NCBI GenBank assembly: GCA_903898785.1
Contig: CAIUGU010000142.1
Coordinates: 24,795-88,794, forward strand
Direction: 5' to 3'
Origin: an uncultured Pseudomonadota bacterium
GTDB lineage: Bacteria; Pseudomonadota; Gammaproteobacteria; Steroidobacterales; Steroidobacteraceae
DNA length: 64,000 nt
A program made the translations under genes and the position numbers. Positions 5,383 to 61,684 of the stretch are shown piece by piece. The notes under the pieces are model-generated. The model was not told the DNA's origin. It did not search any database and saw only the letters and a program-made list of their open reading frames with translations. The stretch's first letter is position 1, and every line of letters starts with the position of its first letter.

Positions 5383-5459
5383 GCGCCCGTAGCTCAGCTG
5401 GATAGAGTACTGCCCTCCGAAGGCAGGGGTCACAAGTTCGAATCTTGTCGGGCGCGCCA
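5383..5459 (+). tRNA. tRNA-Arg (anticodon CCG)
   Basis: gcgcccg acceptor pairs with cgggcgc, anticodon stem/loop ctgcc-ctCCGaa-ggcag, ggttcgaatc-like T arm (aagttcgaatctt), encoded CCA. Confidence 0.95.
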
Positions 5460-28059: not shown

Positions 28060-28108
28060 ATCCCCAACCCCTAGGGAAGAATCAGGGGGTTGTGTGCAGT
28101 GCATTTTG

Positions 28109-28275
28109 GCAGGTTGATGCAAAAGTCTGTCCGTGCCTTTTGCATCTGGAGACAGCGAAAAGCGTGGTTTTCACTGTCTCCCGAAATCAACGAGTTACGA
28201 CTCGTGGATTTCGCCGAGTCGTCCGTGACTCGGACTAACAGGGTGCTGCAAGGGGGCTTGCATCACCCTGTTAGA
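28109..28275 (+). repeat. Copy A of a ~167-bp multi-hairpin intergenic repeat
   Basis: Five stems: 28116-28125/28137-28146; 28148-28161/28068-type partner at 28168-28181; 28182-28195/28200-28213; 28214-28220/28227-28233; 28236-28252/28257-28273. About 91% identical to 43385-43551 (15 differences by hand count), no indels. Confidence 0.93.
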
Positions 28276-30577: not shown

Positions 30578-30785
30578 CGACCGGCGGGCTTTGCCCGCAA
30601 GTGGGCCGCTGGCGGGAGGGCCTCCGGCAAGGGGGCCTACCGGCAAGTCAGAACGGAAACGGTACAGGCATTCTTCCCTTCAGCCGCGGATCTGAATCTC
30701 CTGCTCGGCCTCTGACCTGCCGGTAGGCCCCCTTGCCGACAGGCCTACTTGCCAGCGGCCCACTTGCGGACGAAGTCCGCCGGCC
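30578..30785. repeat. Head-to-head REP/BIME-like inverted repeat
   Basis: Arms 30578-30652 and 30711-30785. The inner 27 nt (30626-30652 vs 30711-30737) match at 26/27 as reverse complements; the outer arm has CGGGCtttGCCCG vs CGGACttcGTCCG. Confidence 0.88.
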
Positions 30786-30796
30786 GCTTCCGCGAC

Positions 30797-43183: not shown

Positions 43184-43384
43184 GGCTCAACTGGTTCCCG
43201 GAGGAAGGCGTACCCGCAGGATGTCTCGCCGCGGGACCCTATCTTAGGCGACGACCTTCGAGCCGCTGCAGGCAGAACGCGGAACTGTGCCCGGCCGCAC
43301 AGGAAGCCGGCGTTTCCGCGGGTGGCACGACGGGTACTCCTGCGCGCTGAACGACGGGTTACACGGAGTCAAATCAATCCCTTA

Positions 43385-43551
43385 GCAGGTTGATGCAAAG
43401 GTCTGTCCGTGCCTTTTGCATCTGGAGCCAGCGAAAAGCGTGGTTTTCACTGGCTCCCGAAATCAACGAGTTATCTCTCGTCGATTTCGCCGAGTCATCC
43501 ATGACTCGGAGCAACAGGGTACTGCAAAGGGCTTTGCATCACCCTGTTAGA
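43385..43551 (+). repeat. Copy B of the ~167-bp multi-hairpin intergenic repeat
   Basis: Same 167-nt length as copy A, ~15 substitutions, boundaries GCAGGTTGATGCAAA...CACCCTGTTAGA; stem-preserving changes. Confidence 0.93.
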
Positions 43552-43625: not shown

Positions 43626-44123
43626 TTGCTGCTCCTCGCCAGCGTGCCGCCAGGGCCCCGCTCGCTTGCCGCGGAGTCTGGCGGGGCGCAGGCCCCCTGG
43701 TCTGCGAGGGTGATCCGCGTCCGCGATGGGGACAGCCTGCTGGTTCGCGCGGGCGGTCGCGACGTCGAAGTCAGGCTGGCCGACGTCGATGCCCCCGAGC
43801 GCGGGCAACCCCATGCCGACCAGGCGCGCAAGGCGCTCATCGACCTGCTGCAGCGACGGGACGTCATGGTGGAAGTCCTCGATACGGACACCTACAAGCG
43901 CAAAGTCGCGCGGGTGCGCCGCGTACCGGATGGCCTCGACATCAATGCCGAAGTGGTGCGTGCGGGCAATGCATGGGTCTTCCGCCGCTATCTCCGCGAC
44001 CCGTCGCTGTTGGCCCAGGAGGGCTCCGCCAGGGCCCGACGCGCAGGATTGTGGGCGCTGCCGGAAGACCAGCGCATTCCACCATGGACCTATCGCGAGC
44101 GCGAGAGGCGACGGCCGGACTAG
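43626..44123 (+). CDS. Staphylococcal nuclease-like (SNase/thermonuclease) secreted protein
   Basis: WSARVIRVRDGDSLLVRAGGRDVEVRLADVDAPERGQPHADQARKALIDLL...KVARVRRVPDGLDINAEVVRAGNAWVFRRY; TTG start used by the track, true start uncertain. Confidence 0.87.
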   Translation: MLLLASVPPGPRSLAAESGGAQAPWSARVIRVRDGDSLLVRAGGRDVEVRLADVDAPERGQPHADQARKALIDLLQRRDVMVEVLDTDTYKRKVARVRRVPDGLDINAEVVRAGNAWVFRRYLRDPSLLAQEGSARARRAGLWALPEDQRIPPWTYRERERRRPD

Positions 44124-61508: not shown

Positions 61509-61672
61509 GTTAACAGGACGCTGCAAGACTCATGGCAGCCCCCTGATCTATTCCGAGTCAGGGATGGCTCGGTGAAATCAACGAGTTCCAGTTCGTTGAT
61601 TTCGGGAGCCGGCGAAAACGACGCTTTTCGCCGGCTCCCGATGCAAAAGGCACGGATAGCCTCTTGCATCAG
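61509..61672 (-). repeat. Copy C (diverged, inverted) of the multi-hairpin intergenic repeat
   Basis: Reverse complement GATGCAAGAGgctatccgtgcCTTTTGCATCGGGAGCCGGCGAAAAgcgtcgTTTTCGCCGGCTCCCGAAATCAACGA...TCGTTGATTTCaCCGAG...CTCGG...CCTGTTA aligns with copies A/B. Confidence 0.88.
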
Positions 61673-61684
61673 GCCGGAGGAGTC

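Follow-up and report, generated by a model that had tools for sequence, protein, structure and literature searches.

The question raised by this locus is why a strongly structured repeat should lie a short distance upstream of an SNase gene, and whether its structure serves that gene. The window analyzed here is a stretch of 64,000 nucleotides from the genome of an uncultured bacterium of the family Steroidobacteraceae. A first-pass annotation of the window reported that a repeat present in two copies, termed A and B, exhibited compensatory changes in its stems, took these changes as a sign of selection on structure, and implied that copy B served the SNase transcript as a structured element at its 5′ end. 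Comparison with related genomes upheld the reading as selection on base pairing but not the implied role for the SNase gene. Copy B is in all likelihood one insertion of a non-autonomous MITE-type element of ∼161 bp, which would be moved in trans and whose hairpins would be kept in transposing lineages.

The gap-free alignment of copies A and B spans 170 nt and contains 16 differences, one of which sits in the flanking duplication, outside the element (Table 1). Two stem changes were fully compensatory, as originally described: an A-T pair in hairpin 2 (hp2) of copy A (28152/28177) is C-G in copy B (43428/43453), and a G-C pair in hp5 (28252/28257) is A-T (43528/43533). The extra G-C pair reported for hp5 of copy B was confirmed and is formed through position 43532, and the A-to-G change in hp1, at 43400, does retain a G-U pair. 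The placement of both hp4 changes in the loop did not hold for position 43497, whose pair closes the loop and goes from G-U in copy A to A-U in copy B, and four changes in hp3, at 43474-43476 and 43482, had been overlooked, the last falling on a mismatch that is unpaired in both copies. The repeat was correctly located, but the extent given for it, 167 nt from 43385 to 43551, had to be narrowed to a true element of 161 bp. A third, diverged copy (C) was detected on the minus strand of the window. Relative to dinucleotide shuffles, copies A, B and C had folding z-scores of −7.8, −9.0 and −8.2, respectively, far beyond chance. Copy B lies, as annotated, between FHA and SNase genes, both of whose proteins match Pfam, and the first in-frame ATG, GTG or TTG of SNase is a TTG at 43626, ∼76 nt downstream of the element (∼75 nt had been claimed). 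Other features of the window include a tRNA-Arg (CCG) at 5383-5459, an inverted repeat at 30578-30786 (arms of 46 nt, 83% complementary, 117 nt apart), and diverged direct repeats (72 to 76%) in predicted coding regions at 40449-40621/52707-52879 and 2-150/2206-2354, which are probably paralogous domains.

Table 1. Components of copy B and positions of the copies of the element in the window
Feature	Position	Strand	Remarks
Left target-site duplication of B, TTAG	43382..43385	.	Direct TTAG...TTAG; TTAG present once at the empty orthologous site of G001
Copy B, five-hairpin element, 161 bp	43386..43546	+	
Left terminal inverted repeat of B, CAGGTTGATGCAAAG	43386..43400	+	Matches right end in reverse complement
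hp1, GATGCAAAGG/CTTTTGCATC, loop with TCC	43392..43422	+	96.9% of cells paired order-wide
hp2, GGAGCCAG-GAAAA/TTTTC-CTGGCTCC, loop GCGTGG	43424..43457	+	Fold and covariation
hp3, GAAATC.ACGAG/CTCGT.GATTTC	43459..43488	+	12/12 pairs change two-sidedly somewhere in the order
hp4, CCGAGTCA/TGACTCGG, loop TCCA	43490..43509	+	95.0% of cells paired order-wide
hp5, AACAGGGT..TGCAAAG/CTTTGCA..ACCCTGTT	43513..43548	+	Fold, own-genus covariation and end analysis
Right target-site duplication of B, TTAG	43547..43550	.	
Copy A: TTGG, element 28110-28270, TTAG	28106..28274	+	Empty site in G001 with TCAG
Copy A, aligned region	28106-28275	+	Compared with B 43382-43551
Copy C (diverged): element 61514-61676; TTAA at 61510-61513; left target degenerate (CCTC)	61510..61680	-	Empty site in G001 with CTGA

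The element has no gene-length open reading frame of its own and is not AT-rich (GC of 0.41 to 0.62 per copy). Its terminal inverted repeats are CAGGNTGATGCAAAA in this genome and of the CAGGNTGTTGAAAAA type elsewhere, the ends reading CAGGTTGATGCAAAA on the left and, as the reverse complement, CAGGGTGATGCAAAA on the right; they are near-perfect in the carrier genomes G202, G384 and G329. The 3′ arm of hp5 constitutes the right terminal repeat, with its final two bases inside the right TTAG. Hairpin number, order and lengths were constant over four families, as were short loop motifs (TCC in hp1 and hp4, GYGYGR in hp2), while the stems were rewritten; most relatives have TCCG in the hp4 loop, versus TCCA in copy B. 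A length below ∼200 bp, the absence of a protein gene, terminal inverted repeats, a target-site duplication and dispersed, polymorphic copies are all characteristics of MITEs. Short forms, in which the left arm of hp1 is joined to the right arm of hp4 via a common TCCGTG loop, were also observed in two species (L022:1481-1552 in G001; L090:1440-1640 in G000). Many genomes of genus g18 contain other interspersed hairpin repeats with the hp2 inner sequence GCAAAAAGCGTGGTTTTTGC (L054-L065, L069-L071, L152-L156), possibly distant relatives or a common protein-binding hairpin.

Evidence of insertion was provided by G001, a lake bin of the same genus. The FHA-SNase spacer of G001 reads AAATCAATCCC-TTAG-ACTG, while that of the window reads AAATCAATCCC-TTAG-(161 bp)-TTAG-ACTG. 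The one TTAG in G001 and the pair around the element in the window show that copy B inserted here and duplicated a 4-bp target site. Its arrival beside the SNase gene is recent. The joined flanks of copies A and C and of loci L011 and L012 were likewise uninterrupted in G001, with one YTRR-like 4-mer at each junction (CTAA for L011 and CTAG for L012). As MAFFT alignments of empty sites misplaced some flanks, BLAST coordinates and the raw sequence were read directly instead. A direct-repeat comparison of the outer 4-mers of 21 copies gave agreement at 57 of 84 positions (shuffled mean of 44, p = 0.0004), with 7 of the 21 identical; no agreement was detected when the same copies were compared as inverted repeats (p = 0.96). 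The targets are YTAR/CTAG-like and 4 bp long, most copies in families f7 and f10 lying between CTAG and CTAG. Locus L014 and the G001 copy L019 have common flanks, indicative of one old, shared insertion.

The copies are dispersed, multiple and polymorphic between relatives. At least 17 copies, this being the count of clear ones, are present in the genome containing the window, an incomplete bin of 3.15 Mb in 286 contigs that is 78% complete, and about eight, some partial, in G001. A covariance model built from alignment A6 (described below) detected relatives in f7, f10 and f11, three more families of the order. In G384 and G329, near-identical copies number in the tens, and some of them run into contig ends. 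A pattern scan of genome contigs matched five stretches, from Peristeroidobacter soli (G202) and uncultured bins including G001, placing the group in the Steroidobacteraceae. One contig binned as Gemmatimonadetes (L097; CAITQY010000619.1) has the same locus as G001 and, from this identity, is probably mis-binned. No covariance model in Rfam 15 matched the element at the gathering score or at an E value of ≤1, no match was obtained in the phage and plasmid collections searched with own-genus, G206, G202, G384 or G329 copies, the hairpin pattern was not found in viral contigs, and no description of the five-hairpin element was found in the literature searched.

Covariation was counted on a five-hairpin structure fixed in advance from copy B, with controls in which the 3′ partners were slid by one to three columns and with shuffle controls, as a surrogate for R-scape. 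Among 19 own-genus copies, 91.6% of cells were paired and 14 of 58 pairs changed two-sidedly, compared to 2 to 7 in the slid controls. With other genera of the family added (A6; hp1 to hp4), 23 of 44 pairs did so and the covariation score was 0.353 (0.05 to 0.08 when slid). Across the order (46 copies), two-sided changes were found at 36 of 44 pairs (14 to 20 when slid), with a score of 0.579 (0.06 to 0.12 when slid) and 90.0% of cells paired; the order-wide alignment, A8, was fitted to a covariance model and is hence biased towards the structure, and the effect was present already in A3 and A6, which were aligned by MAFFT without structure. Support for structural selection goes well past anything a two-copy comparison could offer, and stem positions varying independently in further copies, named at the outset as the contrary outcome, were not what was seen. 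These comparisons support selection on base pairing in the element family, and the unit under selection appears to be the mobile family rather than the SNase locus.

The level at which selection acts was judged from contrasts between sister copies and from counts of singletons. In own-genus copies, singletons were equally frequent in stems (66 of 116 sites) and unpaired positions (27 of 52), and 41 of the 66 stem singletons break a pair, a pattern indicating that these copies decay once inserted. Disjoint sister copies exhibited 11 double changes from one Watson-Crick pair to another, against ∼8 doubles of any kind expected. In the younger f7 and f10 subfamilies, deviations were rarer in stems (84 of 3,732; 2.3%) than at unpaired positions (78 of 1,227; 6.4%; Fisher p = 6e-11), and some constraint on already inserted copies could account for this deficit. 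As own-genus copies decay after insertion, the structure is probably selected in spreading lineages and not at each locus; the simplest reading is that selection acts on copies that are still spreading, with decay following later.

The proposed explanation is that a transposase recognizing the terminal repeats would cut or copy the element in trans; an enzyme of the DDE type would fit the 4-bp duplication and the inverted repeats. The hairpins, whether formed by DNA that is extruded or single-stranded or by RNA transcribed from either strand, would help the element to move or to be tolerated, the leading possibilities for their role, and would be retained by selection on lineages that go on transposing, with inserted own-genus copies then decaying. 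Against a simple one-step transposition are solitary terminal palindromes of 35 to 43 nt with CTAG on both sides (for example, CTAG-CAGGCTGTTGAAAAACGCAGTTTTTCAACAGCCTG-CTAG), which it does not explain. These were observed at L197:389-431 (G384), L174:301-335 (G329) and L201:394-428 (G314) and represent either what deletions left behind or the smallest unit that moves.

Among other explanations, the one that survives best is that the hairpins act as RNA, as bidirectional 3′-end barriers, stabilizers or RNase III sites, with pairing making insertions harmless or useful; we regard this as possible, if doubtful. With genes called approximately from codon-position GC, a gene 3′ end was found no more than 60 nt from 13 of the 17 own-genus copies. 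Seven of the 17 were situated between convergent genes, a class of spacer that makes up only ∼10% of the intergenic bases in the window; copy B is one of three own-genus copies between divergent genes. There are precedents in NEMIS, ERIC and YPAL (PMC2229807) and in SPRITE (PMC3049150), and the two strands fold about equally well; in 14 of 19 own-genus copies it is the complementary strand that is predicted to fold with the lower energy. However, hp5 is not followed by a T-tract, no intrinsic terminator was predicted at copy B, and the decay of own-genus copies does not spare the stems. The positional bias may also come from the target sequence alone: a YTAR/CTGA-like target would often hold a stop codon, which the duplication would restore. 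The stop codon of a predicted gene overlaps the target 4-mer in seven copies, and the right TTAG of copy A supplies the stop codon (TAA, minus strand) of the adjoining minus-strand gene. Selection on a plus-strand RNA would be expected to leave G-U over A-C among single-sided departures from pairing. This was seen neither in own-genus copies, for which the innermost pairs were excluded (19 versus 33), nor in four f7/f10 subfamilies (18 versus 25), and the pooled counts (37 versus 58, p = 0.04) ran opposite to that expectation. As the departures have no bias to the given strand, the probable site of action of the hairpins is DNA, or else a transcript of either strand.

It could also be argued that the covariation of hp1 and hp5 reflects four copies of one transposase-binding motif that shift jointly with recognition, rather than pairing. 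All four arms do switch together among GATGCAAAA, GTTGAAAAA and GTCGCAAAA in G206 and the own copies, but hp2, hp3 and hp4, which have no motif in common with the ends, covary at least as strongly, with 30 of 34 pairs changing on both sides order-wide; this reading is rather unlikely. A further proposal, to which we give little credence, is that the fixed array of five hairpins with conserved loops and rewritten stems represents a new class of element in which the array itself is the substrate recognized by a host or transposon protein. If such recognition occurred on single-stranded DNA or RNA, the element would be selected as a fold and not as a sequence.

Compensatory changes could also arise by mutation, with no structural selection, if the template is switched from one arm of an imperfect palindrome to the other and one arm is thereby converted to match its partner, a mechanism established for quasipalindromes. 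Such a process would give paired changes on both strands, as observed, but many stem mutations in own-genus copies remain uncorrected, most of the stem singletons breaking a pair, and a mutation bias alone would not hold the hairpin plan and loop motifs over four families; this explanation is quite improbable.

An autonomous element with these ends was not found in the genomes scanned, in a search that was not exhaustive. Exact matches to the terminal repeat in five f7 and f10 genomes were all listed and most were fetched; those examined were the element, fragments of it, solitary palindromes, matches within genes or copies cut by contig ends. None of the terminal-repeat pairs inspected at distances of 0.4 to 3 kb had matching target duplications together with extended repeats, and the PF01609 transposase loci of five genomes had no matching terminal repeats. 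A DUF772/IS1182-type partner was rejected, PF05598 being absent from five carrier genomes, as was DDE_Tnp_1 as a cis-linked partner, for which few genes were found, without these ends. A REP/BIME- or REPIN-like element moved by a Y1 (RAYT) transposase via single-stranded hairpins would match the intergenic hairpins, the short flanking tetranucleotide, the solitary palindromes and the one Y1 transposase gene of the own genome, but we consider it very unlikely. The element was not found near that gene, and G202 and G206 carry the element without a Y1 match. Moreover, it has direct 4-bp duplications and terminal inverted repeats, while the IS200/IS605 family has neither terminal inverted repeats nor larger target-site duplications (PMC2817692), and membership in REP/BIME-RAYT was rejected both on this anatomy and on the lack of a Y1 gene flanked by the element. 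The Y1 (RAYT-like) gene of the own genome (L098:1501-1842; G000, contig C69) has its own flanking inverted repeats of the GGGGACATTCCTGAT type. An attC site is a single imperfect hairpin with no target duplication, and an attC-like integron site was set aside on this anatomy.

The weakest reading, in which copy B acts in cis as a regulatory RNA leader for SNase, is suggested by the proximity of this copy to the start codon and by its strong RNA fold but is highly improbable, as the element is missing from the same gene pair in G001 (the one relative with the locus examined), lies beside unrelated genes elsewhere, mostly at their 3′ ends, exhibits no plus-strand bias in its pairing, and has no promoter-like or terminator-like consensus in the scanned region around copy B. 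Any effect of copy B on SNase expression is incidental to the insertion. Covariation among repeat copies is, more generally, not to be taken as evidence of a regulatory RNA at one locus, and empty sites separate selection on a mobile family from function at the insertion. Strong secondary structure is routinely ascribed to bacterial MITEs, but it can rarely be tested whether that structure has a function or merely follows from the inverted repeats; the same five-hairpin plan, present in several families of one order with almost every stem pair replaced, gives a mobile element a large set of natural covariation data.

Insertion sequences such as the IS5-like elements have 4-bp YTAR/CTAG-type targets. 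Their target duplication is similar, but the PF01609 loci noted above lack matching ends. Bacterial MITEs (type II; PMC10969869, PMC2229807) resemble the element in being below 200 bp, gene-less, multi-copy and intergenic, with terminal inverted repeats, short target-site duplications and strong hairpins. They form one long fold, whereas here five hairpins stand in series, in a ∼161-bp plan that is not AT-rich and is kept over four families with rewritten stems; no partner insertion sequence was found in the genomes scanned. REP/BIME with RAYT (PMC2817692) are also interspersed intergenic palindromes with a flanking tetranucleotide but differ in the direct 4-bp duplication, the terminal inverted repeats and the lack of a link to a Y1 gene seen here. 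YPAL/RU-2 of Yersinia (168 bp) is alike in size, in its palindromic nature, in having empty and filled sites and in being found by transcript; it has internal inverted repeats and duplications that vary between 3 and 26 bp, in contrast to the constant 4-bp YTAR-like duplication and terminal repeats of this element (PMC2229807). CIR of Caulobacter and Brucella has independent hairpin arms, a conserved motif exposed in the loop and a phylogenetically conserved fold but consists of two arms, carries a GANTC motif and lacks a terminal inverted repeat, compared to five hairpins, terminal repeats and a target-site duplication here (PMC2229807). BOX of Streptococcus pneumoniae is likewise a modular interspersed repeat with IS-like terminal inverted repeats and several stem-loops, in which the number of boxB modules varies, whereas the five hairpins are constant here apart from deletions (PMC3049150). 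The element is set apart from YPAL, NEMIS, BOX and CIR by a five-hairpin array that is constant across the order while nearly every stem pair has been exchanged.
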